Positions 1-19,311 are shown, counted from the stretch's first letter. The stretch: 64,000 bases of DNA from an uncultured Pelagibacteraceae bacterium (GCA_902599605.1 CACKFV010000002.1:19236-83235); one strand, 5' to 3'. Notes: generated by a model from the letters alone, not told the origin. Translations and numbers: made by a program.

Positions 1-275
1 AGAAAAAAGTCAAAGCTTCCTTTGGCTGTATTTATTAAATCTTTTAATTCTGTCTTTGGTATCTTATAGAATTTTGAATTTATTAGCTTTCTTTCCTCAT
101 TTAAAAGCTTCATCATTTCAAAAAATAGTTTTTTACCCGATGGCATCTTCCCATAAAATGGAGGTGGATTAGACTTATCTATTTTTATAGGTGTCGCATA
201 CTTAAACGAAATAATGTAGTGCGCAGAATACCAAATAAACTTACTTGATTGATTTATTAAATAACTTAGTGACAT
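1..275 (-). CDS. hypothetical protein, truncated by window edge (N-terminus MSLSYLINQSSKFIWYSAHYIISFKY...)
   Basis: Open minus-strand frame from ATG at 275 to the window start, read by hand; not in ORF track. Confidence 0.55.
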   Translation of the reverse strand, partial: MSLSYLINQSSKFIWYSAHYIISFKYATPIKIDKSNPPPFYGKMPSGKKLFFEMMKLLNEERKLINSKFYKIPKTELKDLINTAKGSFDFF

Positions 276-306
276 ATTTTTATTATACCAAAAAAAGATG
301 ATTTTT

Positions 307-1014
307 TTAACCTAGATTTTGCAAAAAAGGCAATGATTTCAACAAATAAAAACCCACTGCCTGAAGTTGGTTTGTAAGTATTAAAATACCTGTTCCCAAT
401 AAAATAAATCCACCAGTTTTTGAAATAATATTGATATTTCTTTTTAGGTTTTTTGAAACAAGCATGAATTTTTGTATCAAGAAACCAGATAAAATAAATG
501 GGATCGCCAACCCTAAAGAATAAAATAATAACAGTAATACTGCTTTTAATAATGTTTGCTCTACAGCTGCAAGAGCTAGTATAGAACCTAGTATAGGTCC
601 AATACATGGAGTCCAACCAAAACCGAAAGCCATCCCAACTAAAACAGAACTAAAAATATTTGCACTTTTTTGTGTTTGAAATCTTTTTTCAAAGTTAAGA
701 AAATTTAAATTTATTATTCCAATTATTTGAAGAGAAAAAAAGATAATTACTAAGCCAGAAAGTATTCTTAACTCTATTGAGTTATTTAACAAAATTTTTC
801 CAATTAAAGAACTAGTTGCACCAAACGCAATAAAAATTAAAGAGAAGCCAACTGTAAAGAGAACTATTGGTATTATATTAACTTTTTTTTCCTCAAGTAG
901 TTCATTTAAAGATTTTCCCGATACATAAGATATATACCCAGGTATTAAGGGTAAAACACAAGGAGATAAAAAACTTAGAAGGCCTGCACCTAACGCCAAA
1001 ATTAATTCTGTCAT
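307..1014 (-). CDS. ccdA: cytochrome c biogenesis protein CcdA
   Basis: GLLSFLSPCVLPLIPGYISYVSG and GFGWTPCIGPILG motifs, multi-TM. Confidence 0.9.
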   Translation of the reverse strand: MTELILALGAGLLSFLSPCVLPLIPGYISYVSGKSLNELLEEKKVNIIPIVLFTVGFSLIFIAFGATSSLIGKILLNNSIELRILSGLVIIFFSLQIIGIINLNFLNFEKRFQTQKSANIFSSVLVGMAFGFGWTPCIGPILGSILALAAVEQTLLKAVLLLLFYSLGLAIPFILSGFLIQKFMLVSKNLKRNINIISKTGGFILLGTGILILTNQLQAVGFYLLKSLPFLQNLG

Positions 1015-1019
1015 CTAAA

Positions 1020-2462
1020 TTAACCTTTTAAACCAAGGTGAGTGTACTTAACATTAAGATAATCTTTTATTGCCATAGAACCACCTTCCCTTCCGTATCC
1101 TGCTTGTTTGATGCCTCCAAAGGGTGCTTCTGCTAAAGCTACTAAAGGTGTATTGACTGCTACTGTTCCGGTTTCCATCAACTCTGAAGCTCTATGTGCT
1201 TTTTCCATAGAGTTGGTACAAATATAACTTGATAAACCTAATTCATGGTTGTTAGCTCTTTCGATTACTTCATCAAAACTTTTAAAGGATAACATAGGAA
1301 CCAAAGGTCCAAATGGTTCCACTTTCATTATTGTGTAATCATCTTTAACATTATCAAAAACTGTAGGTTCATAGAAATAACCTTTGTTAAAACCTGAAGG
1401 CCTTTTCCCGCCTAATAAAACTTTTGCGCCCTCTTTTTTTGTTGTTTCAACTAATTCTTCAATTTCGTTTAATCTTTTTTTAGTTGTTAAAGGTCCAAGT
1501 TGAACTGAGAGATCCATGCCATCACCAATTTTTAATTTTTTAGTTTTTTCTACAAACAAGTTAACAAATTCATCTTTTTTATTTTCTTGGATGTAAAATC
1601 TATTGGGTGATATGCAAACTTGACCATTGTTTCTAAATTTTGCAGCGATTGCCATGTCAGTCGCTTTTTTAATATCTGCGTCATCAAAAACTATAAATGG
1701 AGAGTGACCACTTAATTCCATTGTAACTCTTTGAACTTTGTCTGCTGCCTGTTTTAAAATTAATTTTCCAACTCTTGAAGATCCAGTAATTGAAATCTTT
1801 TTTACTATATCAGAGGCAATTAATTGCTGGGCGATACTTGGGGGGTCCCCTGATAATAAATTTACAACACCCGGGGGAACTCCACATTCTCTACAAATCT
1901 CAACTTGTTCCATAACAACGCCAGGAGTTATTACATCTGGTTTTACAATTACTGAACAGCCGGCTGCTAATGCTGTAGAAATTTTTCTAGCAGATAAAAC
2001 TAAAGGAAAATTCCATGGAACTAATGCTGCTACTACTCCAACAGGTTGGTAATATACGTGCACACGTGTATCTTCAAATCTACTTTCTACTGTTTGACCA
2101 TAAATTCTTTTTGTCTCCTCTGCATTCCATTCATAAATATCTGCAGCACCGTTAACTTCACCTTTTGCTTCTGCAAATGGTTTTCCAACTTCAAGCGTCA
2201 TCCATTTAGCAAGTACGTCTTGCTTTTCTCTCATCTTGTCAGCAATTTTTCGTAAAATATAAGCACGTTGCCATGGCGGTGTTTTTTTCCAAACCTCTAA
2301 TCCTTTTTGTGCTGATAATAATGCTTTATTAACATCTTCGGGTGAAGCTTTAGAGGCTTGACCTATTATTTCTTCGTTAGCTGGATTAATAACTTCATAC
2401 GTTTCGCCTGTAGAGGATTTGTGCCACTTGCCATCAATGAATTGACCATATTTTTCGTACAT
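1020..2462 (-). CDS. NAD(P)-dependent aldehyde dehydrogenase family protein
   Basis: PWNFPL, ELSGHSPFIVFDDAD, NNGQVC, GGIKQAGYGREGG motifs. Confidence 0.9.
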   Translation of the reverse strand: MYEKYGQFIDGKWHKSSTGETYEVINPANEEIIGQASKASPEDVNKALLSAQKGLEVWKKTPPWQRAYILRKIADKMREKQDVLAKWMTLEVGKPFAEAKGEVNGAADIYEWNAEETKRIYGQTVESRFEDTRVHVYYQPVGVVAALVPWNFPLVLSARKISTALAAGCSVIVKPDVITPGVVMEQVEICRECGVPPGVVNLLSGDPPSIAQQLIASDIVKKISITGSSRVGKLILKQAADKVQRVTMELSGHSPFIVFDDADIKKATDMAIAAKFRNNGQVCISPNRFYIQENKKDEFVNLFVEKTKKLKIGDGMDLSVQLGPLTTKKRLNEIEELVETTKKEGAKVLLGGKRPSGFNKGYFYEPTVFDNVKDDYTIMKVEPFGPLVPMLSFKSFDEVIERANNHELGLSSYICTNSMEKAHRASELMETGTVAVNTPLVALAEAPFGGIKQAGYGREGGSMAIKDYLNVKYTHLGLKG

Positions 2463-2565
2463 ATTTTAATCTAGCATGACCTTTTAAAGTGTCTAGTGTG
2501 CAAATAAATCATATCAACAAAACCAATAAACTCGATACATTAGGATTTAAAAGAAGGAGTATAAT

Positions 2566-2883
2566 ATGAAAGCGTATATAATGGGAAACTACACAGAAAA
2601 AGCTTTTCAAGGATTTTTGAAAGATCCTGGAACTGACAGAAAAGCAGTTGTAGAACAATTAACAAAAGCTATGGGTGGAACAATGCATAGTATGGACATT
2701 GTTAGAGGATCTTATGATTTTGTTGTTGTTGTAGATCTTACATCATTTGATGACTTTGCTGCAATTAAACTTGTTGTAGAAGGATCAGGTGCTGTTAAAA
2801 ATTTAACAATACTTGAGGCGATTGATTTTTCAAAAGCCACAGCTAAAGCGGGCAAAATTGGTTACAAAGCCCCAGGACAATAA
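2566..2883 (+). CDS. GYD domain-containing protein
   Basis: 105-aa protein with GYD-family pattern (YDFVVVVDLTSFDDFAAIKL); AAGGAG upstream. Confidence 0.75.
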   Translation: MKAYIMGNYTEKAFQGFLKDPGTDRKAVVEQLTKAMGGTMHSMDIVRGSYDFVVVVDLTSFDDFAAIKLVVEGSGAVKNLTILEAIDFSKATAKAGKIGYKAPGQ

Positions 2884-2902
2884 TAATTTGTAATTATCTT
2901 AA

Positions 2903-2930
2903 TAATCCTCTGTGTGTGGACAGGGGATTA
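2903..2930 (+). terminator. candidate intrinsic terminator hairpin at left island edge
   Basis: TAATCCTCTG-tgtgtgga-CAGGGGATTA, 10-bp stem with one G-U pair; T-tract begins a few nt downstream. Confidence 0.5.
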
Positions 2931-2934
2931 AAGA

Positions 2935-5900
2935 TTATTTTTTTTTCTTTTTTCTTTCTGAGAGTATTGTTCCAATATACTCGTGCGCATAATCAGAGTA
3001 TTGATTACCAAAATTTAATTCTCTATCAAGTTTATCATATATTTTTTTATCTTTTTCGGAGAGATCATATTCACTAGTAATAGATTTATCTTTTTTCTTT
3101 TTTTCATTCAAAAATTTATCTCTTTTACCTGTTGTGTTCTTTTTGATAGTTTCTAGGTCTTCAGTTGAAAATTTTTCGTTATCGATATTTATTTTTTTTA
3201 GTTTTTTTGTTTTTGAGATACTTATAGGATTTAATATCTCGTAGCCCATATCATCACTGTTATGAAATTTAAAATGTTCTAAATTATTTAGTTTGGAAAT
3301 TTGTTTTAGATCTAATCTAAATGGCCTAGGTCCAACTTTATCATATCCCCATTTTTCTCCTGTTTTTCTAAAATAGGTTATATTTGTTTTTTGTCTACTT
3401 TCAAATTTTTCATTTCTTGAAATAGCTAAAGCTAATTTTTTAAGTTTTTTAAAATTTTTACAAATATAATTAATTGTATTATTACCTTCAGTAATGTTTT
3501 CATCTAGATATGAAATATCTAGATCTAAATCTTCTAAACTTTTTTCAACAAATGAAAGTAATTTTGGACCTTTAACTGATGAATGATATTGGGGTAATCT
3601 TAAGTTTATTTTTAATTTTTTAAGTTTTTGCAGAGCTTTTAAAAATTCAAAACTTTCATCTGTTATATTCTCATCTACATTTCCATCATCACTATACATG
3701 TCAGCTGTTATAAGTTTTAAAGAAATATCAATTTCCTCTAAATTTTTTAAAGTTTTTAAAGGTGGTAAATAAATTGGATTTATACCGCCTAAATTTAAAT
3801 AATTCAGTTTCGATAATTTATATATATCTGTAAAATCAAATTCGGTTGTCATCCATCTACCATTATTATTGCTCGTATTATATAAACTTAATAATTGTAA
3901 ATTTTTGAGATTAGGTAGGTTTGAAAAATTTGTAAAACTTTTAGATTTTTCTACATAACTATCTCTGATAACTAAACTTTCTAAATTTGGCAAAAAAGGA
4001 ATTTCTCTTTTTTTACCCAGACAATCCAACAAAATAATTTGTTTTAAATTTGAAGTTGAAATGTTTTTTAAAATAGACTTAATGTTTACTTCCCTTCCTC
4101 CAAATATATTTAAAGTTTCTAATTGGTCAAATTTTACTGATTTCGGAAATTGAAATTTTTCTTCAAGTTTCCAAAATTTATTATAAATTAAATTATCATA
4201 ATCATCAAAATTGTAGGTTGGTTTACAAAAATAGTAATAATGTCTAATATTTTTGAATATTATCTTTTTTGAATTGTCTAAAAATTTTTTTTTAACAAAT
4301 ATAATGGGTTCATAATAATCAGCATTATTATAGAAATGGTTATATCTAGAACTGAAATCAAAAAAAGTCCCATCTTCATACATTTCATTGAGAAATTCAC
4401 ATTCCTTAGGATAATTTTTATCTGGTGTATAACTTACTGTAATTCCAGTTTTTCCGAGGTTAATTGTAAAAGGATCTGGGTTCTCAAAAACATATTTATC
4501 AATTAATTCAATATCTCTAACAACTTTTGATTCATTCCATCCAAAGTTATCATCTATAACAACTATGGAATTAACTTTTTCAAGGAAATAGTTTTCAACA
4601 ATTTTATCTACCTCTTTTCTATCAAGATTTTCAATAAAAAATCTTTTTTTCATATCATTGCTATCGTCTAAAACTCTAAACATCTCAAAAATTTGAATAT
4701 ACCTTTCAAGGTCAATTGTTTTATTTAAGTCAAGCTTTTCGGATGGATCATTTTTTAACTTTGTATGTCTAAAAAATATTTTAAGATTTTTGTTTTTTTT
4801 TAAAATATCTAAAACAAACCTATTTAGTTGTTGGCTTTCCTCATGTCCAAATCTACCCTCCATATCTCCATGGCCGTCTAACGAAACACCATCTTCCTCC
4901 AATATCAGTTTTTTTAGATGGTTGTTTTTTTCAATAAATTTTACAACAAGATCAAATGTATCAAAGTATATGGCTTCACTTCTAAAGAATTGATAAGCAG
5001 GTTTGATAATTAAATCTTCAATTGGTTTACTAAAAGCGTCATCAATTAAGGTTCTATTTTCTTTATCATCAATGATAGAAAAATAATTAAGTGTAAGAGT
5101 TTTATCTTTGTTAGAAATTAATTTATTTTCATGAAGTTCTTCAATTTTATTTGATAAGATAATTTTATTTATTTTTTCTTTTGATGTAGATAGCGGTTTT
5201 TTTAATATTTTATTTAAAGATGTTTGATTTAATCCGTTTATTTTTGCTTTACTATTTGACGTGAGTTTTATTGCAGTATCCAAAAACCTTGTGTTAGCTA
5301 ATTCATTTAAATTTTTAAATTTGTAACCATGAATGAAAATTTCTTTTACTTTTGAATTTTTACATACTTTGTTAATTTTAGGAATATCATCTTTAAAAAA
5401 GTTATCCTCAAAGTTAAATAACTGCCCCTCTCTTTGGTCCTCTGTAAAATAGTTATAAAGATTAATTTTTTCTAATGATTTAAATTTTTCAAAATTGGGA
5501 AATTGATAGATATTTGGTAGATGGTTTGTTAAAAACCATAATCCTTCACCTCCATAACCCTGATAGTCTTTATAATTCTCGTGCTCAGATTTCATCCAAT
5601 CTTTTCTAAAAATAATTTCATAAGATTTTAATTTTTTAGGATATAGATTTTTTGGAAATTTAGATAAACCTGGGACAGCTATATTGCTTGAGTCGTCTAT
5701 AACGAAACTTTCAAGATTTGGAAGAGAATAAAGATTTTTAAAAAAATTGACTCTAGATTTAAAAGACAGATCACATGAGATTAATTTCAATTTTTTAAGT
5801 TTTTTTAGTTTTGATAAATCATTCCAGTTTTCATAGTTTTGTAAACCATGCAGTTCTAAATCTTCGACAAAACAAATCTTTTTAAAAATGTTGAGGTTAT

Positions 5901-7230
5901 CTGTTTTCCTTAAATCAATTTTGTCTAATGAAATTGCTTTTGATTTTTTATTTATTTGATCTTCAAGAGAGAAGTTTTTTTTAAAGGAATTATCGAAAAA
6001 GATTTTTCCCTTTTTATTTCTATTTAAATAACAACCCTCTATGCCTTCAACAACTATATATGTATCAGCATATTCATAATCATCATAATAATCTTTACGA
6101 ATATATGAATGAACATAACAGGGATATTTACCATTCTTCACTGGAATAGTGGCTGAGCCAGACAATAAAGGTTCAGATTTTAATTTATAGCCCTCATAAA
6201 ATGTGTCTTGAATTTCATGTAAACCAGGTTTTTCTAAAGTAAGAAAGTTATTAGATTGATTAAAATTTGGAGATGTTAAATCTCTAATTATTGAATTGAT
6301 AAAATTTTCAAATTGTCTTTTTCTGATTTCATGAACCTCATTAAAATTTTTTTTAAATAATATTTTATTTTGTTTTTTAAGTATTTCTAGAGCTTTTGGA
6401 AGTCTATCTTTTAAGTACTTTACTGATATTTTTTCTGCATCTTTAATTTTAAGGTCTTTTATATCATCTCGATAACTGTCTTCCTCTATTAAGTATTTTT
6501 CAAAAATGTACTTTGTGGGATAACAATCCTCATCAAGCAATCTGCTTAAAAATTCTGTATACTCTGTTTTCTTAAACTCATTAATATTAACGATCTTTTT
6601 GTTATGAATTTTTGAAGATTTGAAAGAAGATGGGGACGGAGTATTTTGTGGTCCATAATGAAATAAATATAATCCGATTGGATAATTATTTTTATAAACT
6701 CCATTCTCCTTAAAATATTTTGTATCTACAGATTTTAATACATGCTCATCATGCTCATAACGAAAATTTCCACCATAATCAGCAATTGAAATTGCTCCTG
6801 AATTTATTTCCATGTCAAAAATTTTTTTTCTAATAGTTTTTTTATCTTTAGAATAAAAAAATTGATCGTTTAAATCTCTCTTCATAAAGCTCCAAGAAAC
6901 TAGATTTCTTCTCTTCTCTTTGTCAAAAATAGAGAATCCCCCAAAATGTCCTCCATTGACACTGGCAAATATTTTTTTGACTTTGTTGAATTTGTCAACT
7001 CCCACCCAAACAGGATAACATCCGTCAGCGCCGTTGGATACAGATATAGAGTTGAATTTTTTTGAATCAATTTTTTTAAGATCATCAAATATTGACCCCT
7101 CGTAAGTATCTATTGAATTTGATAAATTTTCACAAAGATCAGTTACCACAACACATGCGGCATCTACTAAAGTATCAGTCACATGATAAACGTCTGTAAT
7201 TGGATAAGGATCTTTATTTTTTTTGTTCAC
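2935..7230 (-). CDS. very large (1431 aa) leucine-rich-repeat protein; N-terminal region resembles DUF4241-like modules
   Basis: Repeated LxxLxxLxL segments (LKKLKKLKLISCDL, LPNLKNLQLLSL, LKTLKNLEEIDIS, FKKLKKLALAI); N-terminal SVSNGADGCYPVWVGVD and a second IPVKNGKYPCYV module. Confidence 0.8.
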   Translation of the reverse strand: MNKKNKDPYPITDVYHVTDTLVDAACVVVTDLCENLSNSIDTYEGSIFDDLKKIDSKKFNSISVSNGADGCYPVWVGVDKFNKVKKIFASVNGGHFGGFSIFDKEKRRNLVSWSFMKRDLNDQFFYSKDKKTIRKKIFDMEINSGAISIADYGGNFRYEHDEHVLKSVDTKYFKENGVYKNNYPIGLYLFHYGPQNTPSPSSFKSSKIHNKKIVNINEFKKTEYTEFLSRLLDEDCYPTKYIFEKYLIEEDSYRDDIKDLKIKDAEKISVKYLKDRLPKALEILKKQNKILFKKNFNEVHEIRKRQFENFINSIIRDLTSPNFNQSNNFLTLEKPGLHEIQDTFYEGYKLKSEPLLSGSATIPVKNGKYPCYVHSYIRKDYYDDYEYADTYIVVEGIEGCYLNRNKKGKIFFDNSFKKNFSLEDQINKKSKAISLDKIDLRKTDNLNIFKKICFVEDLELHGLQNYENWNDLSKLKKLKKLKLISCDLSFKSRVNFFKNLYSLPNLESFVIDDSSNIAVPGLSKFPKNLYPKKLKSYEIIFRKDWMKSEHENYKDYQGYGGEGLWFLTNHLPNIYQFPNFEKFKSLEKINLYNYFTEDQREGQLFNFEDNFFKDDIPKINKVCKNSKVKEIFIHGYKFKNLNELANTRFLDTAIKLTSNSKAKINGLNQTSLNKILKKPLSTSKEKINKIILSNKIEELHENKLISNKDKTLTLNYFSIIDDKENRTLIDDAFSKPIEDLIIKPAYQFFRSEAIYFDTFDLVVKFIEKNNHLKKLILEEDGVSLDGHGDMEGRFGHEESQQLNRFVLDILKKNKNLKIFFRHTKLKNDPSEKLDLNKTIDLERYIQIFEMFRVLDDSNDMKKRFFIENLDRKEVDKIVENYFLEKVNSIVVIDDNFGWNESKVVRDIELIDKYVFENPDPFTINLGKTGITVSYTPDKNYPKECEFLNEMYEDGTFFDFSSRYNHFYNNADYYEPIIFVKKKFLDNSKKIIFKNIRHYYYFCKPTYNFDDYDNLIYNKFWKLEEKFQFPKSVKFDQLETLNIFGGREVNIKSILKNISTSNLKQIILLDCLGKKREIPFLPNLESLVIRDSYVEKSKSFTNFSNLPNLKNLQLLSLYNTSNNNGRWMTTEFDFTDIYKLSKLNYLNLGGINPIYLPPLKTLKNLEEIDISLKLITADMYSDDGNVDENITDESFEFLKALQKLKKLKINLRLPQYHSSVKGPKLLSFVEKSLEDLDLDISYLDENITEGNNTINYICKNFKKLKKLALAISRNEKFESRQKTNITYFRKTGEKWGYDKVGPRPFRLDLKQISKLNNLEHFKFHNSDDMGYEILNPISISKTKKLKKINIDNEKFSTEDLETIKKNTTGKRDKFLNEKKKKDKSITSEYDLSEKDKKIYDKLDRELNFGNQYSDYAHEYIGTILSERKKKKK

Positions 7231-7798
7231 TTATAGTTTTCTTTATTATCTTAATACTTTCCTCGTTTGGTGGAAAAGATTTATTTAAATTCCCAAGTTT
7301 TTTGCTTGTTTTAAATCTTAAAGTTTTGCTACCTCGCTGAGTATTTTCAATATATAAATAAATTCCTGGTTTTCTAATTTCATTTAATTTCTTTTGAAAA
7401 TAATTTGTTATCTTAACGTCATAATCAGCAGTTTTTGATACCTGATTATCAAGTGTCTGACCTTTGAGATTTTTTGTGTTAAAATTAATGTCATTCAGAC
7501 GGTTATAAATAATCGTTGTTCCAATTTGATTTTTTTTTGAAAGATTTCTGTTGATGAATTTTACAGCGCCCTCGACGCTAATTAAACTATTTTTTGGTTG
7601 TGCCTCAAAATACTTTTTAATTTCCTTATTTTTAGTCTTTAATGATATTCCAAAATTAAACTCTTTCTCATATTCTTTTAGAACTCTGTTTGAATAACCA
7701 TTCACCACTTCACCTGCTGATCTAATAAGTGCACTTTTACTTTCCCAATCAATGTTATTGTTTTTTATTTGATCTTTAATAAAATTTTTCAAACCCAT
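7214..7798 (-). CDS. uncharacterised protein (194 aa)
   Basis: Intact ORF overlapping the LRR gene start by 17 nt; operon position. Confidence 0.75.
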   Translation of the reverse strand: MGLKNFIKDQIKNNNIDWESKSALIRSAGEVVNGYSNRVLKEYEKEFNFGISLKTKNKEIKKYFEAQPKNSLISVEGAVKFINRNLSKKNQIGTTIIYNRLNDINFNTKNLKGQTLDNQVSKTADYDVKITNYFQKKLNEIRKPGIYLYIENTQRGSKTLRFKTSKKLGNLNKSFPPNEESIKIIKKTISEQKK

Positions 7799-7803
7799 CT
7801 TAG

Positions 7804-8256
7804 TTAATTTCTCAAGCTTTCCCTATATTTTTTATCTCTAATTCTTTTTGTCTTTTTTTGTTCCTCGGTAAGATATTTATAAATTTTTTTATCATGAGCC
7901 TTTTTTTCACTTTCTGTCATAAGATCCCTTATGCGTTTCGTTGATGATCTGTTTCTAAGTGTATACAAATCAATTTTACCACTTTTAAATTCAGTAATAC
8001 TTCTTAATGTTGAATGTTTCAGAATTTTTGTCATATTTGATCTTTTACCAGTTGTATGAAACTTAAGGGTGGATCTTTCAGTTTCTTTCCTTGTAAGAAG
8101 AGCATTCTTTTTATTTGGATTTAACTTTCCTTCACCTCTAAAATCTTTTTTTGTCCAAGTTGGATGTTTATCAATAATTTCTTGAATTTCCTCATTACTT
8201 CTCAATACCCATTGATTATGACCTTCTGGATTTCTATTAAAGTTTTTATTTTTCAC
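7804..8256 (-). CDS. uncharacterised basic protein (150 aa, GTG start)
   Basis: ORF tightly packed in operon; overlaps the upstream micro-ORF by 11 nt. Confidence 0.65.
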   Translation of the reverse strand: MKNKNFNRNPEGHNQWVLRSNEEIQEIIDKHPTWTKKDFRGEGKLNPNKKNALLTRKETERSTLKFHTTGKRSNMTKILKHSTLRSITEFKSGKIDLYTLRNRSSTKRIRDLMTESEKKAHDKKIYKYLTEEQKKTKRIRDKKYRESLRN

Positions 8257-8401
8257 TGTCCTTAGTATCTTTAATTTTGCTGTTTTCTTCTTTAGTTTTT
8301 TTCATTTCTTTGTATAGCTTTATAAAATCTTGACGTGATCCTTTCTTTTTTCCTAATGCTCTAAATTTATTTGTCCATTTATTTCTATCTTTTGTTTCCA
8401 T
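8246..8401 (-). CDS. uncharacterised 51-aa basic protein (METKDRNKWTNKFRALGKKKGSRQDFIKLYKEMKKTKEENSKIKDTKDSEK)
   Basis: Hand-translated; ATG immediately follows the DUF2130 gene stop (TAAATG); fills an otherwise empty operon gap; absent from ORF track. Confidence 0.6.
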   Translation of the reverse strand: METKDRNKWTNKFRALGKKKGSRQDFIKLYKEMKKTKEENSKIKDTKDSEK

Positions 8402-9484
8402 TTAATTTTTTCTCCACTTATCTAAAAATGCAGTAATTCCAATTTTTTCTATTTCCTTAAAAAACTCCTCTAAACTATCTTCCATTTGCTCATCTAAATC
8501 AATTGCATCATTTAAGTTTTGAAGAGTTAATTTCATTTTTTTTCTTTTTTTCTCAGAAATATTAATTTTTTGCATAATAAGATTTTTAACTATTGGAGAG
8601 TCCAAAAATTCTATCGCGGAAATTGCATTTTCTTTTTTGTCACCTCTTTGTTTGTCGATCAAAACATGAGCCCATCTTTGTGTGGTGGCAAGATTTTTTA
8701 AAGTTGGAAAATCATATTTGCAAATAAAAATATTTCCTTCGTGATGCCATGACGCATCTTTAGGGAAATCTTTAGGTGTAGCTCTAGTAAATATGATACC
8801 AATATCTGATTTTGAGTCCTTCATGTCAGATTGTAATTTTTTTTTCCAGTCGTTACTCCAATTCTTCGTATTTTTTCTCTCATACAAAATTTTACAAACT
8901 GTTCGATCATTTTCTATTACCTCATGAAGCCAGTCTCCTCCAGGTACACCCTTTGCATATTCTTTTATTTTATCCTTTTTATCTTTAAAAGTTTTTTTTA
9001 AATAATCCCCTAATGAAATTTCTGCACCAGATCCTTGATCTACAGTGGTTCCTTGGTTCACAGTTTGATTTAAAGTCTGTATTTGTTTATTTAATCTATT
9101 CTTTTCTAAATTCCATTTATTTTTTTCTTCACTATATTTATTAGATAGATCCTCTCGAACTTTGTTAATATCATTTTCCCTCAGACTTTCATAATGTGCT
9201 TTATTTGAGGCTCTGTCCGCCTCAAGAGCCTTTTGAATTTCAGCTTTTCTATTTGCATCATTTTTTTTACTTTTTTCTTCTAATTCTTGGATTTTTTTGA
9301 GATTGGCTTTATTCTTTTCAGCTTCCTCTTCTCTAAATTCTTTTTTAAATTTATCAAGATCTCTCTTGTTTTTTTCCTTTTCTTCATCTCCAATTTTTTT
9401 TTTATGTTTTTCAAGATTCTGCTTTATAGCATCCTCCATGGGAAACTCTGCTTTACATATTGGACATGTAATTTTTTCACTCAT
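8402..9484 (-). CDS. DUF2130-like protein with N-terminal CPxC motif and central coiled coil
   Basis: MSEKITCPICKAEFP; Lys/Glu-rich coiled coil; ILYERKNTKNWSNDWKKKLQSDMKDSKSDIGIIFTRATPKDF resembles the DUF2130 core. Confidence 0.75.
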   Translation of the reverse strand: MSEKITCPICKAEFPMEDAIKQNLEKHKKKIGDEEKEKNKRDLDKFKKEFREEEAEKNKANLKKIQELEEKSKKNDANRKAEIQKALEADRASNKAHYESLRENDINKVREDLSNKYSEEKNKWNLEKNRLNKQIQTLNQTVNQGTTVDQGSGAEISLGDYLKKTFKDKKDKIKEYAKGVPGGDWLHEVIENDRTVCKILYERKNTKNWSNDWKKKLQSDMKDSKSDIGIIFTRATPKDFPKDASWHHEGNIFICKYDFPTLKNLATTQRWAHVLIDKQRGDKKENAISAIEFLDSPIVKNLIMQKINISEKKRKKMKLTLQNLNDAIDLDEQMEDSLEEFFKEIEKIGITAFLDKWRKN

Positions 9485-9796
9485 TTATAACTCCTTTTTT
9501 TTTGAATTATGGTTTAATTCCTCGTAGAATGTGAATAATTCTTTTGTAAGAACTTTGATTTCCACTTCATTTTTTTTATATTCATGACACATTCTTAGGT
9601 ACTTTAACAATCTTATCAAATTTATTGGTATAAAGTATATATCCAAAATTACCTTAAGTAACGGTCTAGATTTATAAAACTCAGCGTCCGTTTTTTTTAG
9701 TACTTCTTTATTAGCTAGATAGATATCCACTGAACTTTTCCAATCTATACAATACTTTAATCTATTTTTTATTTTATTTTTTAAATAATTGTTCAT
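9485..9796 (-). CDS. uncharacterised protein (103 aa)
   Basis: ORF directly abutting the DUF2130 gene (TAA followed by ATG); ATGA overlap with upstream ORF. Confidence 0.65.
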   Translation of the reverse strand: MNNYLKNKIKNRLKYCIDWKSSVDIYLANKEVLKKTDAEFYKSRPLLKVILDIYFIPINLIRLLKYLRMCHEYKKNEVEIKVLTKELFTFYEELNHNSKKKEL

Positions 9797-9954
9797 TTAA
9801 CATACCTCGCAATTTGTTTATAACATACTGGTCTAACTGAAGATTTTCCTATAATTTTGATTTCTTCATTTTTATAATAGTAAATCCAATAGTAATGTTG
9901 ATCATTTATCTCGTCGAAAACTTCTTCTATTCGAATTTCTGTAATTTTGTCCAT
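9793..9954 (-). CDS. uncharacterised 53-aa protein (MDKITEIRIEEVFDEINDQHYYWIYYYKNEEIKIIGKSSVRPVCYKQIARYVK)
   Basis: Hand-translated; TAATG overlap with upstream ORF and ATGA overlap with downstream ORF; absent from ORF track. Confidence 0.65.
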   Translation of the reverse strand: MDKITEIRIEEVFDEINDQHYYWIYYYKNEEIKIIGKSSVRPVCYKQIARYVK

Positions 9955-10232
9955 TAGTGTAAAACCCTTCCTTCATGAATTTTGTGTTCATGATGAATTT
10001 TGGATAAAATTAATCTTATATGTCTTGAAAGTTTTACCCATTTTTTACTACTCTTTTTGTGCGAATTAAGCCAAGGTAAGTAAGATTGATCTATTTTTAA
10101 AAACTTTATGATCAAATCATCCACTTCTCTCAAAAAATTTTGTCTTTCTAGAGGTGAATATTCACTAAGCAAATATATTAGCTTTTGATGATCATTTTTC
10201 TCAGATTTAACTATTTTATTCCCTTTTTTCAT
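9954..10232 (-). CDS. uncharacterised protein (92 aa), first gene of the accessory operon
   Basis: ORF with AAAGGA upstream of ATG; translationally coupled to the next ORF. Confidence 0.65.
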   Translation of the reverse strand: MKKGNKIVKSEKNDHQKLIYLLSEYSPLERQNFLREVDDLIIKFLKIDQSYLPWLNSHKKSSKKWVKLSRHIRLILSKIHHEHKIHEGRVLH

Positions 10233-10287
10233 ATTTTTCCTTTCAAATTAAAGCTCTGCCTTGGAAAAATACAAATTTATCTATTAT

Positions 10288-10315
10288 CCAAAAGCAAAAC
10301 CCGTGTTTTGTTTGG
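10288..10315. promoter_or_regulatory. dyad/hairpin in 5' region of the accessory operon
   Basis: CCAAA-ag-CAAAAC-ccgt-GTTTTG-TTTGG: 11 bp paired with a 2-nt bulge and 4-nt loop. Confidence 0.45.
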
Positions 10316-10438
10316 TTAATATGATAAAACTGTCTGAAATAATTTAACGAACTGGTTAGTTAAATAATTGTCTAAACAAGTAAATCAATTAACTAATTTC
10401 AATATATCAATTAACAAATTAATTTCAAGATAAAAATA

Positions 10439-10612
10439 TTATTTTTTATTCTTTATTTTAAATCCATTTTTTTCAAGAATTTTAATAAGGTTTTTAAGTC
10501 TCTCATCTCTTGAAGTGTTTTGATCTCCAATTTTCTCAAAAAATATAGGTCTTAAACCTTTTTTTTCTTTCGATTTAAGATAATTGAATATGGATTGTAT
10601 TTTAAGCTTCAT
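10439..10612 (-). CDS. uncharacterised 57-aa protein (MKLKIQSIFNYLKSKEKKGLRPIFFEKIGDQNTSRDERLKNLIKILEKNGFKIKNKK)
   Basis: Hand-translated; strong SD AAAGGAGAAAC-ATG; absent from ORF track. Confidence 0.55.
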   Translation of the reverse strand: MKLKIQSIFNYLKSKEKKGLRPIFFEKIGDQNTSRDERLKNLIKILEKNGFKIKNKK

Positions 10613-10747
10613 GTTTCTCCTTTAGCGTTATATTTAATGTCTTAGCAAGTAGAGTTAAGTACTAAATCAAGACAATCTGATCATATCATATGACTCATAA
10701 GATTCAAATTGAGTTTAATTATGGTATAAATCTAATATTGATTCTTT

Positions 10748-11791
10748 ATGAACTATAAAAACATTCAAGCAATTAGCCTTTTTTCTGGTGCTGGAGGGTT
10801 AGATATTGGGTGCAAGCAAAACAAAATTGACGTTAAAGTTGCAATAGACAATGATCACGACTCAGTGAAGACTCTAAAACTAAATTCCCACTTTAATGAT
10901 ACAACAGTTATCGAAGAGGATATTAAAAACTTTAAGATTAAGAATATTGAAAAATATTTAAATGGGAAAAAAACAATAATTATTGGTGGCCCCCCTTGCC
11001 AACCTTTTTCTAAAAATGGTTATTGGATTACCAATGAAAAAAGGAAATCTAATAAAGATCCAAGAAATTGTTTAGATGATTTCTTCAATTTTGTTGAAAA
11101 AATTAATCCAGAAGGTTTTTTAATTGAAAATGTTGAGAGTATTTTACATCCAACAAATAAAAATGCCGTAAACTCAATATTTAGGAAAACAAAAAAATTA
11201 AAATATAACCTTAAAATGGTTAGAGCTAATGCATTAGACTATGGTGTACCGCAGAAAAGAAAAAGGGTGTTTTTTCTTGGTTCAAAAAAAGAATTTGATA
11301 ATGAAGAGCCAAAGAAAACTCACTATGACCCAAACAAGCCTGACTTATTTAATACTAATTTAAAGCCATATGAAACTGTTGGCGAGCACATTAAAGAGTT
11401 TGACAAAGATATTTATGAAGAAGAGCATGAAAAAACAAATTTAGGAACTTTTTACAAGGAATTAAAAAAAGTTAAACCAGGAGAAAATTATCTTGCCTTG
11501 TGTGATGGAAAAAAATCAAACTTTAAAAAAAATACTAGATTTTGGAATTTTTTATTAAAATTGAAGGAAGATTTACCATCATGGACAATAGCAGCGCAAC
11601 CAGGTCCATGGGTTGGTCCTTTTCACTGGACTAACAGAAGACTAAGAGTTCCTGAGATAGCGGCTATACAAACTTTTCCGAAAAATTATAAATTCTTTGG
11701 AACCAGAAGATCTATTCAAAAACAGATCGGTAATGCAGTACCTCCATTAATGGGTAAGGCAATGGTGAAGTATTTGATAGATAATTTATAA
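10748..11791 (+). CDS. DNA (cytosine-5-)-methyltransferase
   Basis: Motif I SLFSGAGGLDIG, IV GGPPCQPFS, VI ENV, VIII QKRKRVFFLG, X QIGNAVPP. Confidence 0.95.
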   Translation: MNYKNIQAISLFSGAGGLDIGCKQNKIDVKVAIDNDHDSVKTLKLNSHFNDTTVIEEDIKNFKIKNIEKYLNGKKTIIIGGPPCQPFSKNGYWITNEKRKSNKDPRNCLDDFFNFVEKINPEGFLIENVESILHPTNKNAVNSIFRKTKKLKYNLKMVRANALDYGVPQKRKRVFFLGSKKEFDNEEPKKTHYDPNKPDLFNTNLKPYETVGEHIKEFDKDIYEEEHEKTNLGTFYKELKKVKPGENYLALCDGKKSNFKKNTRFWNFLLKLKEDLPSWTIAAQPGPWVGPFHWTNRRLRVPEIAAIQTFPKNYKFFGTRRSIQKQIGNAVPPLMGKAMVKYLIDNL

Positions 11792-13333
11792 AAGCCACTT
11801 TATAGCAGGTCTTGTATCAGACCATTTATCTTTTTTAAAAGTTACAATTTTATTATTTTGCATCCAACAAAGAGTAATGTTTTGATCCTTTAAAAATCTG
11901 ATTTGAAAACTTTTAATTATTTCTTCTGGATTATTATTAAGCAATAGAAACAAATCAGTATTTTTTAAAATTTCCTCATTATACATTGCATATCTAAAAT
12001 AATATTCTTTTAATTGAATTATCCCGTGTCTAATTTGTTGATCTAAATTTGACTCATCAAAAGTTTTAACTTCAAAAAGCTTTCCTCTGTTTTGATATTC
12101 AGTATATAGGTCAATATGAATTGATTTCCATGTTCGCAACCCTTTTGATTCACACTTTTTTGCTAATTTAATTAAAACTTCTTCATGAAGCCTAGTGGCT
12201 CTGTTCAATGCATTATGTTTTTCTATTGGATCGCTTATATTATCAAGATTAAGAGTTTTATCTGTGTAAGAGTGATTTAAATCAAATTCTAAAAGTATGT
12301 TAGGCTCATCTTGATGTTGTATTTCATTTTTTGTTTTGTCTTTTGAAACTTTAATAAGATTAGTATTTCCAACAAAAAAATTGACATCATTTGAAATAAT
12401 TTTTTCTTTAATTAACTTAGCATCTTTTGAAAGTTTAATTTTATCAAGAATCTTAGATTTAATAATATAATTTTTTTTTAAAATTATAATTGCGCGTTTA
12501 TCTGGAACAACTCCTTTTTTAATCGTATCTTTTTTAATTGCAAGATGTTTTGTTGAGGGATCATCTCTTAAACCAGAGTCGATATTTTCGAGTTTTCTGC
12601 TTATACCATTAAAATTTCTAAAATTTTTTGCTATGTCTTCATGATAAAATTTTTTTCTAGGTAAAAAGCCTTTCAAATCAGAATTGCGAATACAAAAATT
12701 TGAAATTTCTAATATTTCAGGTGAATTTCTACTTATTGGATATTTTTTAAAATATAAATCCAGACAAAGAATTAATTCGTCTTTTGTATAGGGTTTATTC
12801 CAACTTCTAATTTTTTCATTTAATATTTCTAATATATTTCTATTAAAAATTTGGTTATAATTTTTTAATACCAATGGAAATAAAAAGGCGTTTACTGATA
12901 GAGCTTGATTTCTCTCATTAACTATACCTCTATAAAATGCTTGTCGCCTTTTAAAAAAATAAATATCACATCCCTCATTTTGAGCCTTTTTTAAGTTTTG
13001 GCTCCGTGTATAAAATGACTGCATTGTATTTGTTTCGATATAGATATCAAATTTCCAAAAGGTAAATGTATTTGTATCTTTATCGTAACCGAGTAACAAA
13101 GGCTTATAGTCATCTGCTTCATTTTCAATTAGAAGTCTTTTGATTCTAGGAGAAATTTGAATTCTTTTTTCAAAGGGATTTTTTCTACCCTTTCCAGAAC
13201 TTTTAATTTCATTAATACAAATAATAAATTTATTCCCTTCCTGATTGATTTTAATTAATTTTTGATCAACTATTTTTACATCAAAATCTATTACTGGTTG
13301 ATCTAAAGAATAATTTATTAAATCTAAAATCAT
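11786..13333 (-). CDS. candidate restriction endonuclease (PD-(D/E)XK-like)
   Basis: C-terminal IDLYTEYQNRGKLFEVKTFDESN resembles D-x(n)-ExK; located between two m5C methyltransferases. Confidence 0.55.
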   Translation of the reverse strand: MILDLINYSLDQPVIDFDVKIVDQKLIKINQEGNKFIICINEIKSSGKGRKNPFEKRIQISPRIKRLLIENEADDYKPLLLGYDKDTNTFTFWKFDIYIETNTMQSFYTRSQNLKKAQNEGCDIYFFKRRQAFYRGIVNERNQALSVNAFLFPLVLKNYNQIFNRNILEILNEKIRSWNKPYTKDELILCLDLYFKKYPISRNSPEILEISNFCIRNSDLKGFLPRKKFYHEDIAKNFRNFNGISRKLENIDSGLRDDPSTKHLAIKKDTIKKGVVPDKRAIIILKKNYIIKSKILDKIKLSKDAKLIKEKIISNDVNFFVGNTNLIKVSKDKTKNEIQHQDEPNILLEFDLNHSYTDKTLNLDNISDPIEKHNALNRATRLHEEVLIKLAKKCESKGLRTWKSIHIDLYTEYQNRGKLFEVKTFDESNLDQQIRHGIIQLKEYYFRYAMYNEEILKNTDLFLLLNNNPEEIIKSFQIRFLKDQNITLCWMQNNKIVTFKKDKWSDTRPAIKWLL

Positions 13334-13374
13334 GATAATAAGTTTCAGTAAAACATAAATTTAAACCAAAAAAA

Positions 13375-14397
13375 ATGAAAATTTTAAGTTTGTATTCAGG
13401 GGGAGGTGGTATTGACATAGGTTTTAGCAAAAATAAGTTTAAAACTGTTTTATCAATAGAAAATTGGGACAAGGCATGTTTCACTCTTAAAAAAAACAAT
13501 ATTTCCAAAAACGTTATCTGTGAAGACATCAGAAAAGTAAATTTTAATACCATAAAAAGTCAATTTAATTTCGACTGTATTGTTGGTGGACCACCGTGTC
13601 CACCATTTTCAAAGTCTAGATTTTATCTTAAAAATAAAAAAAGAGCTCTTGAGGATGATGATTCTCATACACTTGCAAATTACTTTTTGGCTGTTGAAAA
13701 ATTTAAACCCAAAGTATTTTTTTTTGAAAATGTACATGGTTTTATTTTTAAACCTCATGAAGCAGCCCTTAGGTACTTTGAAAAACAATCTGAAAAACTT
13801 GGATATTCAATTACTCATAAAGTTATAAATTGTGCCGATTATGGAGTTCCACAGATTAGACAAAGATTTATATGTGTTGGATTTAAGAAAAATTTAGGAA
13901 AATTTATTTTTCCAAATGAAACACACTCTAACCAAGACAATGACAATAATCTATTCTGTCTTCCTTGGGTAAATTGCAAAGATGCTATTGGAGATTTAGA
14001 TTATCCCCTTAAAGAGGATAAATATAAAATGGCAGGTTCAAAGCATAAACATTTGCTAAAGAAAATTCCTCCAGGTGATAACTATTTATTTTTCACAAAA
14101 GAGAGAGGACACAAGAAACCATTATTTAAATGGAGATCTAGATACTGGTCATTTTTATTAAAACTGTCTCCAAACAAACCCTCATGGACGATTCAAGCAA
14201 GTTTTTCTAATAATATGGGACCGTTTCACTGGAAAAATAGATTTTTAAGAATTAATGAAATAAAAAGATTGCAAACATTTCCAGATAATTATAATTTTTT
14301 TGGAAATTTTAGTGATCAATGGAGACAAATAGGCAATGCAGTTCCACCTCTATTAGCTGATGTAATTTCTAAAGAAATAAAAAAACAATTAGGCTAA
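13375..14397 (+). CDS. DNA (cytosine-5-)-methyltransferase, second paralog
   Basis: SLYSGGGGIDIGF, GGPPCPPFS, FFENV, VPQIRQRFICVG, QIGNAVPP; C-terminus aligns with the first MTase (SWTI..GPFHW.NR.LR..EI..LQTFP). Confidence 0.93.
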   Translation: MKILSLYSGGGGIDIGFSKNKFKTVLSIENWDKACFTLKKNNISKNVICEDIRKVNFNTIKSQFNFDCIVGGPPCPPFSKSRFYLKNKKRALEDDDSHTLANYFLAVEKFKPKVFFFENVHGFIFKPHEAALRYFEKQSEKLGYSITHKVINCADYGVPQIRQRFICVGFKKNLGKFIFPNETHSNQDNDNNLFCLPWVNCKDAIGDLDYPLKEDKYKMAGSKHKHLLKKIPPGDNYLFFTKERGHKKPLFKWRSRYWSFLLKLSPNKPSWTIQASFSNNMGPFHWKNRFLRINEIKRLQTFPDNYNFFGNFSDQWRQIGNAVPPLLADVISKEIKKQLG

Positions 14398-16901
14398 TGC
14401 CCTTTTGCTATAAATCTTGTGCCTAAAACTTTAGGACAATAAAGTCTAAAATAAGGAATATTTTTTTTAAATGGCTTATCTTTGTTATCCCCATCATCAA
14501 TATTAAACCTAAACAACTGCAAAGTTGCTATATTCTCAGCTCTACGAGCCTCTTTTCCTTCAGCAGGTATAAAAGATTCTGTTGCTGACTTGATCCATCT
14601 TTGTTCAGGAAGTGTCAAAAATTCATAATGTAAAAATCTGTGGTGCGGCCTTGTTTTTCCACCCCCAGAACATATAGATATCCCACTTTCACCATTAATG
14701 AAGTCATCTTTATCAACTTTTCTTCTCCTGTCATCAGAAGAATTCATAATTATAATTGCTAATTTTAAATCATCAAGATTTTGGTTATTGTTATATTCGA
14801 TCAATTCATCAAATAAATTGAAATCGTCTCTGGCATCCTCATCAAATTTGAAAATATGTTTTAGGTATTTCTCATTGGTCTCTTTTAAACTTAGATCTTC
14901 AATAACATGCACGTCTCTTAATGCCTTTGCGTAACTATGTTGACATACTTCTAATATTTTTTTTTTGTTCTTTAAATTAATTAATTCATCATAAATTTTT
15001 TTATTAACATCTTGTTCGATGTCATTTAAGTGATGTGCCATCACATCTTCTGATATAAATCCTTTTGGTCTTGTTTTTAAGTCATGCTCAACAATTGATC
15101 TTCTTACGGGACCATTTTTGCTAGAAAAAGGAAAAATTCTTTTTAAATCTGTTCTTAAATCACCACCCTCTTTCACAGCATCTTTAATTTTATTTCTTAC
15201 AATAATTTCATTATCATATTGCTCTTGAAAAAACTCGATTAGATCATTAGGAAGATAAAATCTTATAAAATCTACATAATCTTTATGATATCCAAAAAAC
15301 CTAGCTCTTTGGTAAACTGTATCATCAGTTCCACTTTTTCTAACTATAAAAGAGACAGTGAGCCCTTCAATAGTATATCCTCTTTCTAACCCAACTCCTC
15401 CTACAAGTATCCTCGAATAAATTCCATCTTCACCCCATTTAATAAATGGTATATTTGATTTACCTGCTGCATTAAATAACGTTGTAGTTGTCAATTTTAA
15501 ACTCTTAAGAACATTTTTAATAAAATCGTCATCCCAAGTAGGTATTTTGCCACCATCTTTTTTTAAATCTTGGATCGCTTCTAAATAATCGTTTTCTAAG
15601 TCCTTATAAGAAATATCCAGTACTGAACTCGAATTTTTGATGTTTTCCCATTTTGACTCGAAAATTTTTTTGTCGTCACGAATAATGCCATCAACCCATC
15701 CTTTCCACTTTTCATGGTCTGGTCTTCCAACCGATGGGTGAACTAACATTGATCTAGATTTTCCTGCAGTGTGATCTTGTCCTTTTAATCCAACAGCTAC
15801 TCCTATTATAAAAAGTCTTATAGCTTTTCTCAAAGAGTTTGGCATTATTGAAGGGTCAGCAGTTTCACTTTCTTCAACTATTCTCGTATGTTTGTTCTGT
15901 TGCTTTGCTCCTTTTCCAAAAAAATATTGTGCTCCGGTATAATGTTTACCTGGAGTGAGAACAGTTCCGCTTTTTGGTGATAAATGATTAACTGTTGATA
16001 TTAAAAATTGCGCCATAGGAGTCGCTGTATATGCCAGAAACGTATGCTTATTTAAAGATTGTCTTAGTCTTTTAATCCGTCTATGAGTTGTACTTTCTGC
16101 TCTCTCTATACATAAACTACTTCCGACCATTTTTTCAAGCGAGTCATTTTCTTCTAAGCTATTTAAGTATCTTAAAGTATCCTCGCTTACACAATATTTT
16201 TCAGCTATTGAATCAATTGTTTCACCTTTCTCAACTTTATGCATTTTTGGAGCTATATTTTCTGGAAAATTTCTTTTTCGAGTTCTTACTAAACTATCTT
16301 GTGAGTAATGATCAGCCTCATCATCAATAATCAAAGTGGGTAATTTAGATGTATCAATACCATTTTCCCTAGCTTTATCGAATATTTGGATAATCTTATC
16401 AATTCTTTTATGATGTTTCATAGTAACAATCAAAACTGCTTGTTTTTCCTGATCATCAAAAAGATCATCTTCTTGAGACGATACAATATCTTTCAAAGCT
16501 GTATTGATATCATCGTAATTAAGTTTAGCCCCTCCACCAGGCACTTCAATTCTCTTCCAACCAAACATGTTTAAAGCCTCGTACACTCTATCTTGAGTTT
16601 GTTCTGCTAAATTTGTTACATGCCCTGACAATAAAATTATGAGTTTAAAACCATTATCTCTAGCCATGCATGATACAGCTTCCATAGAAGTAGTCTTTCC
16701 ACTTTGAATATAACCTAAGACAAGATTTGTAGATGATAGTCGATTTGAACTATCTGTTTGAGATGGATTAATACATTTTGAAATTACATCTGCAGTATCA
16801 TTTTTTAAGTTCTCTAAATCTTCTTTTTCTAAGTTTTTCTTAGATAGATTATTTATATACTTTGAAAAAAAAATACCATTTGTTTTGGGTTTCCACTGCA
16901 T
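14394..16901 (-). CDS. Z1-domain-containing SF2 helicase-like protein with inserted LysM-like domain
   Basis: Walker A GYIQSGKTTSM, Walker B IIDDEADHYS, YTATPMAQ, Z1-like RILVGGVGLERGYTIEGLTVSFIVR..DDTVYQRARFFGY. Confidence 0.85.
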   Translation of the reverse strand: MQWKPKTNGIFFSKYINNLSKKNLEKEDLENLKNDTADVISKCINPSQTDSSNRLSSTNLVLGYIQSGKTTSMEAVSCMARDNGFKLIILLSGHVTNLAEQTQDRVYEALNMFGWKRIEVPGGGAKLNYDDINTALKDIVSSQEDDLFDDQEKQAVLIVTMKHHKRIDKIIQIFDKARENGIDTSKLPTLIIDDEADHYSQDSLVRTRKRNFPENIAPKMHKVEKGETIDSIAEKYCVSEDTLRYLNSLEENDSLEKMVGSSLCIERAESTTHRRIKRLRQSLNKHTFLAYTATPMAQFLISTVNHLSPKSGTVLTPGKHYTGAQYFFGKGAKQQNKHTRIVEESETADPSIMPNSLRKAIRLFIIGVAVGLKGQDHTAGKSRSMLVHPSVGRPDHEKWKGWVDGIIRDDKKIFESKWENIKNSSSVLDISYKDLENDYLEAIQDLKKDGGKIPTWDDDFIKNVLKSLKLTTTTLFNAAGKSNIPFIKWGEDGIYSRILVGGVGLERGYTIEGLTVSFIVRKSGTDDTVYQRARFFGYHKDYVDFIRFYLPNDLIEFFQEQYDNEIIVRNKIKDAVKEGGDLRTDLKRIFPFSSKNGPVRRSIVEHDLKTRPKGFISEDVMAHHLNDIEQDVNKKIYDELINLKNKKKILEVCQHSYAKALRDVHVIEDLSLKETNEKYLKHIFKFDEDARDDFNLFDELIEYNNNQNLDDLKLAIIIMNSSDDRRRKVDKDDFINGESGISICSGGGKTRPHHRFLHYEFLTLPEQRWIKSATESFIPAEGKEARRAENIATLQLFRFNIDDGDNKDKPFKKNIPYFRLYCPKVLGTRFIAKGH
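16104..16244 (-). other. LysM-like domain inside the Z1 helicase
   Basis: MHKVEKGETIDSIAEKYCVSEDTLRYLNSLEENDSLEKMVGSSLCIE matches the LysM pattern (x-V-x-x-G-D/E-T-x-x-x-I-A-x-x-Y-x-V...L...N..........G..L.I). Confidence 0.75.
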
Positions 16902-16907
16902 TTTAAG

Positions 16908-18446: not shown

Positions 18447-18540
18447 TTAAAATAACTTATAACGGTTTTTTTAAAAAATAAATCTTTTTGAAAACACATT
18501 TCAGTCTAAATAAGAGCCAATAAATATATTATAAGAAATA

Positions 18541-18915
18541 GTGCGTTTTTTATTATTTTTTACTATTTTTCCTTCAATAGTGCTTGCCGATCAAGGTGTT
18601 GAGATTTCATGTGTAAATATGAAAAATTTACTTGATAAAGAGTATAAAGTTCAAAAGTTTAAATTTGATGTTATGACTTTTCAATATTTTGATGAGAAAA
18701 AAAATCAATTTATAGAGATAGCTAATAAAGATTTAATTATTAAAAAAGACTTTTTTGCTGCAAGGTTCCCAGAATATGAATTGGGTTTTCAGATAAATAA
18801 GACTAATGAAAGTAAAAATCCAATTATGTCTATGTCAAAATATGATTATAAAAATAAAGAATTTATTGACCATTATTTATGTGACGTTAAAACAGCTTAT
18901 ATTGAGAGTTATTAA
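18541..18915 (+). CDS. small secreted hypothetical protein (GTG start)
   Basis: Intact ORF with hydrophobic N-terminal signal-like segment ending LADQG. Confidence 0.55.
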   Translation: MRFLLFFTIFPSIVLADQGVEISCVNMKNLLDKEYKVQKFKFDVMTFQYFDEKKNQFIEIANKDLIIKKDFFAARFPEYELGFQINKTNESKNPIMSMSKYDYKNKEFIDHYLCDVKTAYIESY

Positions 18916-19262
18916 TTCTTTTTTTCGTTGTCGACAACTAGGCAGATTTCTGATTTAGTAAGAAATCTTCGACCTGTTCCGTTATCTAATGAAAACATCC
19001 CACCAATACCATTTACAGCATCAATAGTTAAATCAGTGTGTTTCCACTTCTCATATTGATCATCATTCATATAAAAAGGAACTCCGCCTATCTCACCAAG
19101 TTTAACATCACTGTTTCCTACCATGTATTCGTTCCTTGGATAGCACATTGGTGCACTTCCATCGCAACATCCGCCTGATTGATGAAATAAAAGTTCCTCA
19201 CCGTGTTGAGCTTTAATATCTTCAATTAGTTTTAGCGCTGACTCTGTTGCTTTTACTTTCAT
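18912..19262 (-). CDS. DUF779 domain-containing protein
   Basis: HQSGGCCDGSAPMCYP, conserved DUF779 pattern; adjacent to aldehyde dehydrogenase. Confidence 0.85.
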   Translation of the reverse strand: MKVKATESALKLIEDIKAQHGEELLFHQSGGCCDGSAPMCYPRNEYMVGNSDVKLGEIGGVPFYMNDDQYEKWKHTDLTIDAVNGIGGMFSLDNGTGRRFLTKSEICLVVDNEKKN

Positions 19263-19268
19263 AATAAT

Positions 19269-19294
19269 ATGGCCCGTGATTCCTCACGGGCCAT
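19269..19294 (-). other. GC-rich hairpin between aldehyde dehydrogenase and DUF779 gene
   Basis: ATGGCCCGTGA-ttcc-TCACGGGCCAT: perfect 11-bp stem, loop GGAA on the transcribed minus strand. Confidence 0.7.
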
Positions 19295-19311
19295 TATATA
19301 TTAATTATCTT

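Follow-up and report, generated by a model that had tools for sequence, protein, structure and literature searches.

Do eight tightly packed genes in an uncultured Pelagibacteraceae bacterium make up one undescribed system that is inherited as a unit? The genes lie on the minus strand at 2935-10232 of a 64,000-nucleotide stretch (the window) from a genome of 975 kb that is 86% complete, and we compared them with a collection of relatives that are likewise uncultured Pelagibacteraceae (loci are numbered with L, genomes with G). Our analysis indicates a cassette that is undescribed, probably defence-related, and modular rather than fixed.

The cassette and its island

The coordinates and lengths of the eight ORFs in the first-pass annotation were confirmed, and the junctions were found to overlap, abut or nearly abut. 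The features of the locus are:

2884-18911, no strand: inserted island, comprising the cassette and a MTase/MTaX1/Z1/GHKL block, delimited by the empty site in G689 (L069)
2903-2930, no strand: terminator-like hairpin, 11-pair stem
2935-7230, minus: g8, LRR protein, 1431 aa
7214-7798, minus: g7, 194 aa, basic
7804-8256, minus: g6, 150 aa, very basic
8246-8401, minus: g5, 51 aa, basic
8402-9484, minus: g4, predicted DUF2130 nuclease, 360 aa (Pfam E 1.8e-19)
9485-9796, minus: g3, 103 aa, with a conserved hydrophobic, proline-containing segment
9793-9954, minus: g2, 53 aa
9954-10232, minus: g1, 92 aa, small and basic
10233-10453, minus: leader, about 220 nt 5′ of g1, with an inverted repeat

The g1/g2 junction is TAATG (1-nt overlap) and the g2/g3 junction ATGA (4-nt overlap); g3/g4 and g4/g5 abut at TAAATG, g5/g6 overlap by 11 nt with a GTG start, g6/g7 are separated by 5 nt, and g7 overlaps the LRR gene, which also has a GTG start, by 17 nt, as it does in L007. 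The eight ORFs are real genes and not chance reading frames. Homologs in other Pelagibacteraceae genomes were found for 8/8 (among the small genes, at four loci for g1, five for g2, eleven for g3, two for g5, three for g6 and five for g7), and in comparisons of cassette genes with L007 and L013 third codon positions take most of the substitutions. Paired dN/dS values from these comparisons were 0.06/0.66 for g1, 0.21/1.44 for g3, 0.25/1.76 for g6, 0.33/2.48 for g7 and 0.19/1.27 for the LRR gene, with dS saturated for g2 and for one g3 comparison; by these estimates the genes tested (g1, g2, g3, g6, g7 and LRR) show purifying selection. The leader is 85% identical to that of L007 over 222 nt, with g1 nucleotides at 87%, and contains a perfect inverted repeat, CAAAAC-N4-GTTTTG, at 10295-10310, whose stem arms are identical in L007 and 3/4 of whose loop bases are changed. 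A promoter scan of the sequence did no better than shuffles. At the other end, the hairpin at 2903-2930 separates the convergent LRR and GYD genes.

The eight-gene run first proposed as the unit stands, but the inserted unit is larger. In G689 (L069), window positions 1-2883 are matched at 89% and 18912-21018 at 93% with just 8 bp between them, which constitutes an empty site; because the flanks are contiguous there apart from these 8 bp, 2884-18911 (16,028 bp) is one insertion. It lies between a GYD gene and a 116-aa gene adjoining aldehyde dehydrogenase, at a variable site that other genes occupy in the relatives L070 and L071. Of the annotated genes none was identified as an integrase, and the island borders showed no long direct repeats. 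Between 10748 and 18446 the window carries a restriction-like block of two cytosine methyltransferase genes, MTaX1, a Z1-domain protein that matches PADLOC Helicase_II and MzaC, and a GHKL ATPase. This block shares the island with the cassette, but consists of separate genes that are not homologous to it. The earlier description of an uncatalogued, operon-like accessory cassette adjoining R-M-like genes was thus borne out: no PADLOC 2023 model matched g1-g8 (best E 0.18), and the best match of the cassette search (E 0.002) fell on a neighbouring 57-aa ORF, so that the cassette seems to have no convincing counterpart among the defence systems catalogued there.

Predicted properties of the encoded proteins

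Pfam matches within the cassette were limited to DUF2130 (E 1.8e-19) and LRR_14 (E 9.5e-06, below the LRR_14 curated cut-off), the same two resemblances recognised in the first-pass annotation. The g4 protein is a clear DUF2130 member (PF09903; 70.5 bits against a curated cut-off of 26.7), found here within an LRR cassette, and combines a CxxC zinc ribbon, a coiled coil and a PD-(D/E)XK core. Both the zinc ribbon and the nuclease motif are conserved, the core motif E155, D184, E202-x-K204 being kept in an alignment of eight diverse DUF2130 members with one D-for-E change. The modelled core (pLDDT about 70-83) has an alpha-beta-beta-beta-alpha-beta order, and its best Foldseek matches were MspJI (E 3e-3), Cap4 and EcoT38I (probability 0.95), none below E 1e-3; weak as these E-values are (3e-3 and above), the matches to the model agree on restriction enzymes and the Cap4 nuclease. 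Profile comparison of DUF2130 with RmuC proteins, using shallow alignments, gave no match. To our knowledge the function of DUF2130, a widespread family, has not been established; motif and model together place it as a probable DNA nuclease of the PD-(D/E)XK superfamily, with all catalytic residues present.

DUF2130 was above cut-off in 21/397 Pelagibacteraceae genomes, and about 15 of these 21 genes adjoin SbcB-like exonuclease genes. Homologs of g3 are frequent neighbours of DUF2130 genes in SAR11, and DUF2130 genes on plasmids and in one viral contig adjoin R-M, other DNA-modification or nuclease genes. We also noted a recurrent SAR11 operon of DUF2130 and an SbcB-like exonuclease (L102, L105-L108, L110, L112, L114-L117), usually with a small protein of 130-145 aa and/or a g3 homolog, at a site adjoining a Mur-ligase-like gene. 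PADLOC did not recognise its DUF2130, nor the complete operon; the SbcB-like proteins of SAR11 match a PADLOC defence-associated model (E 1e-77). The small 144-aa protein encoded in these SbcB operons showed no homology to g3.

The g8 protein consists of a conserved N-terminal part of about 690 aa, with a weak DUF4241-like motif followed by LRR, and a variable C-terminal LRR region of about 740 aa. The DUF4241-like motif was present in 5/6 members of the LRR protein family (best E 0.0094) and a weak LRR_14 match in 6/6. The C-terminus is exchanged among relatives, being an LRR region of about 740 aa, an array of DUF4116 repeats (L011, E 2e-107) or absent (L012, L013). Neither an NTPase match in Pfam (NACHT, NB-ARC, STAND) nor a Walker A motif was found in the 1431 aa. 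A search of solved structures with the LRR profile returned weak ANP32-type LRR matches only, and an AlphaFold model of the N-terminus (690 aa, three sequences) was discarded at a mean pLDDT of 38. The N-terminus was found in no genome of a class-wide sample of 289 outside the family and in no viral contig, and tblastn revealed no relative of the LRR protein in phages and plasmids. We infer that the protein may act as a sensor.

Our guesses at the roles of g1-g3 and g5-g7 draw on size, charge, hydrophobicity and neighbours. Homologs of g1 occur in L007 (89% identity), L013, L017 and L113; g1 is probably a regulator, because the homolog in G154 (L017) has an extra N-terminal segment that, judged by eye, resembles a ribbon-helix-helix domain. 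For g2, identity is 88% in L113, 79% in L007 and 54-58% in L105, L107 and L115. Most of the 11 loci with g3 homologs have them adjoining DUF2130 or other nuclease genes, and with Kyte-Doolittle maxima of 1.25-2.31 g3 is a possible membrane-associated partner. A relative of g5 lies directly after DUF2130 in L113 (80% over 30 aa) and another occurs in L103 (66% over 50 aa); relatives of g6 occur in L013 (70%), L017 (67%, with a zinc-binding-like CxxC...CxxC C-terminus) and L111 (53%). The g7 gene, whose product is a possible DNA-binding adaptor, stands directly 5′ of LRR in L007, L008 and L013; no relative was found in viral contigs and no match in the solved-structure search. At L042:9892-11190 a g7 homolog adjoins genes that encode WGR and BRCT domains separately, and genes for RmuC and a Cas4-like protein lie about 6 kb off. 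Weak g7 profile matches in G019, G029, G065 and G262 (E about 1e-3) were judged to be chance, as were the weak Pfam matches to TcdB_toxin_midN (g7), Fasciclin (g6) and HicA (the 57-aa ORF), which were below cut-off and inconsistent among relatives.

Gene order and distribution in relatives

The complete eight-gene set was seen only in the window, and parts of it recur elsewhere. L007 (AG-470-L20) reads g1-g2-g3-RmuC-g7-LRR, and L013 (G043) reads g1-g3, a Cas4-like/RNase H/SF1 helicase protein, a 118-aa gene and g6-g7-LRR. L017 (G154) has g1-g3-g6-g7 followed by the first LRR codons, MSNKNRDPYLISDVYL, a stub that represents a decayed copy. L113 (G150) reads g1-g2-g3-(Cas4-like/DUF2779)-DUF2130-g5, without LRR. 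L010 and L012 share a different order (Cas4-like, RmuC, SbcB-like, 140 aa, LRR, DUF2130), and in L011 a Cas4-like nuclease adjoins an LRR N-terminus fused to DUF4116 repeats. The LRR gene stands alone in L031 and beside sugar-nucleotide genes in L032, with a nuclease next to neither. Four of these loci (L013, L031, L032 and L113) share one site, adjoining rpoD.

Judged by gene order, the cassette is two modules: A, consisting of g1-g2-g3-nuclease(s)-g5, and B, consisting of g6-g7-LRR. The slot between g3 and g6/g7 is filled by DUF2130 in the window, RmuC in L007 and the Cas4/RNase H/SF1-helicase protein in L013, nucleases that are unrelated to one another. Among full N-terminal LRR loci with a readable neighbourhood, 6/8 have nuclease genes in or beside the LRR cassette (window, L007, L010, L011, L012 and L013). 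The proposal of one fixed, co-inherited eight-gene system was therefore not supported, given that the full set was seen only here, that module A occurs without LRR (L113), that module B occurs with other nucleases (L007, L013) and that LRR occurs alone (L031). Scattering of the genes, named in advance as evidence against a single unit, was partly observed (L113, L007, L013, L031), but it takes the form of ordered swapping and not random scatter.

The N-terminal 690 aa of the LRR protein were detected in 10/397 Pelagibacteraceae genomes (seven full-length, two compact copies of 412 aa and one partial match), and additionally in AG-470-L20 and AH-324-N05. The co-occurrence suggested in the first-pass annotation as a check on the block is upheld for LRR and DUF2130, which occur together in 3/397 genomes, each time as close neighbours. 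The association has P = 0.004 with the window's genome and P = 0.03 without it, and co-occurrence statistics that leave this genome out are modest (P 0.03-0.07). The genomes drawn sample species and do not cover every genome, and several of the loci are on short contigs.

Candidate function and competing explanations

The exchange of both nucleases and repeats among relatives suggests an undescribed mix-and-match system against invading DNA. Our preferred reading, to which we give an even chance, is a modular intracellular sensor-plus-nuclease system against mobile elements, probably phages; it fits because both parts swap within a constant small-gene frame, at patchy and variable sites with R-M-like neighbours. 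The large LRR protein would be the sensor or scaffold, its conserved N-terminal part coupling to partner proteins and the C-terminal array, exchangeable between LRR, DUF4116 and none, recognising the invader. The effector would be a PD-(D/E)XK-type nuclease, DUF2130 here and RmuC or the Cas4/RNase H/helicase protein elsewhere, which when released would cut invading (or host) DNA. The g3 protein may be a membrane tether for the nuclease, the basic g6 and g7 proteins may be adaptors that bind DNA, and g1, g2 and the conserved leader would regulate the operon, the nuclease being off without infection.

The patchiness of the LRR genes (10/397), their variable sites, one with a known empty counterpart, the adjoining MTase/Z1/GHKL block and the homologous DUF2130-SbcB-g3 nuclease cassettes elsewhere in the family argue for defence, as do the nuclease genes at 6/8 LRR loci, the unrelated nucleases filling one slot, the catalytic residues and fold of DUF2130, the exchanged LRR C-terminus, the PADLOC match of the SbcB-like proteins and the gene neighbours of DUF2130 on plasmids and in a viral contig. 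The lack of a convincing PADLOC match for g1-g8, the LRR genes without an adjoining nuclease (L031, L032), the altered RmuC motif in L007 and L042, the low-confidence model of the LRR N-terminus and the modest co-occurrence argue against it. The reading is weakest on whether LRR and nuclease work jointly, because LRR copies without a nuclease and module A without LRR both exist. These same loci, together with the single sighting of the complete set, are what would be expected if the genes were neighbours and not partners, gathered as independent accessory genes at a hotspot where two units, DUF2130 with g1-g2-g3-g5 as one defence unit and g6-g7-LRR as another, were fused into one operon by chance. 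We regard this as the leading rival, though distinctly less probable than joint action: module B lies inside the module A frame in three ways (window, L007, L013) with the nuclease changing at the same position, and in L010 and L012, whose operons differ in other respects, LRR and DUF2130 are again neighbours.

A cellular DNA repair or recombination cassette, in which RmuC-, SbcB- and Cas4-like nucleases act on broken DNA together with BRCT/WGR partners and the LRR protein serves as scaffold, would account for the repair-related families (RmuC, SbcB/ExoI C-terminus) and for the WGR and BRCT genes in L042; we consider it unlikely, since the genes are confined to a few percent of the related genomes and lie in variable islands by R-M-like genes, unlike housekeeping repair. 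LRR and DUF4116 repeats are common in eukaryote proteins, and one LRR copy adjoins sugar-nucleotide genes (L032), as might suit a protein that is secreted or displayed on the surface to contact grazers or other cells, with the nuclease genes unrelated. That explanation is more improbable still: g8 has no strongly hydrophobic segment (19-residue Kyte-Doolittle maximum 1.18), and its start codon overlaps g7 within a run of cytoplasmic-looking proteins.

Among known systems, Shield provides a precedent for phage defence by an RmuC-domain nuclease; its core is the membrane-bound RmuC-domain protein ShdA, and it has been reported in Pseudomonas only (PMC10270631). The likeness lies in an RmuC-kind PD-(D/E)XK-type nuclease, small partner genes and several subtypes, and the RmuC proteins of L007, L010, L012 and L042 bear a hydrophobic segment at the N-terminus. 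In the window DUF2130 takes the place of RmuC, the Shield core, to which Pfam found no match in the cassette, and Shield lacks an LRR protein. We also observed that the RmuC proteins at L007:8341-9375 and L042:16719-17708 form a subfamily that may be altered or may not cut DNA, because DAH replaces the expected DxK. SbcB and RmuC relatives in SAR11 DUF2130 operons match the PADLOC models RTasSbcB and RTasRmuC, whereas the window has neither SbcB nor RmuC; Pfam revealed no reverse transcriptase, the component sought for a DRT system, among the cassette genes, and no convincing YxDD-type motif was found in an RT-like ORF near related loci. Bacterial NLR-type (NACHT/STAND) proteins resemble g8 in being large, with a conserved N-terminal part, an exchangeable repeat C-terminus and possibly a sensor role, but g8 lacks their NTPase domain and Walker A motif and the cassette effector is encoded separately.

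SAR11 are among the most abundant ocean bacteria and have streamlined genomes. If the sensor-plus-nuclease reading is true, the cassette would be a concrete, testable candidate for SAR11 phage resistance, one whose repeat sensors can be swapped and whose chromosomal sites vary, and it would introduce a kind of receptor that lacks the usual NTPase. The wider idea of a new immune architecture confined to SAR11-type bacteria, in which an LRR/DUF4116 receptor that has no NTPase, keeps its N-terminal coupling region conserved and exchanges its sensing arrays works with interchangeable nucleases in a fixed small-gene frame, is tentative and in our view rather doubtful.

A recurring trio of an Hsp70-like protein, a variable large protein and an M48 peptidase was also noted, adjoining an LRR protein at L035:3987-8209 and DUF2130 at L111:8798-13740 and L113:8621-13961.
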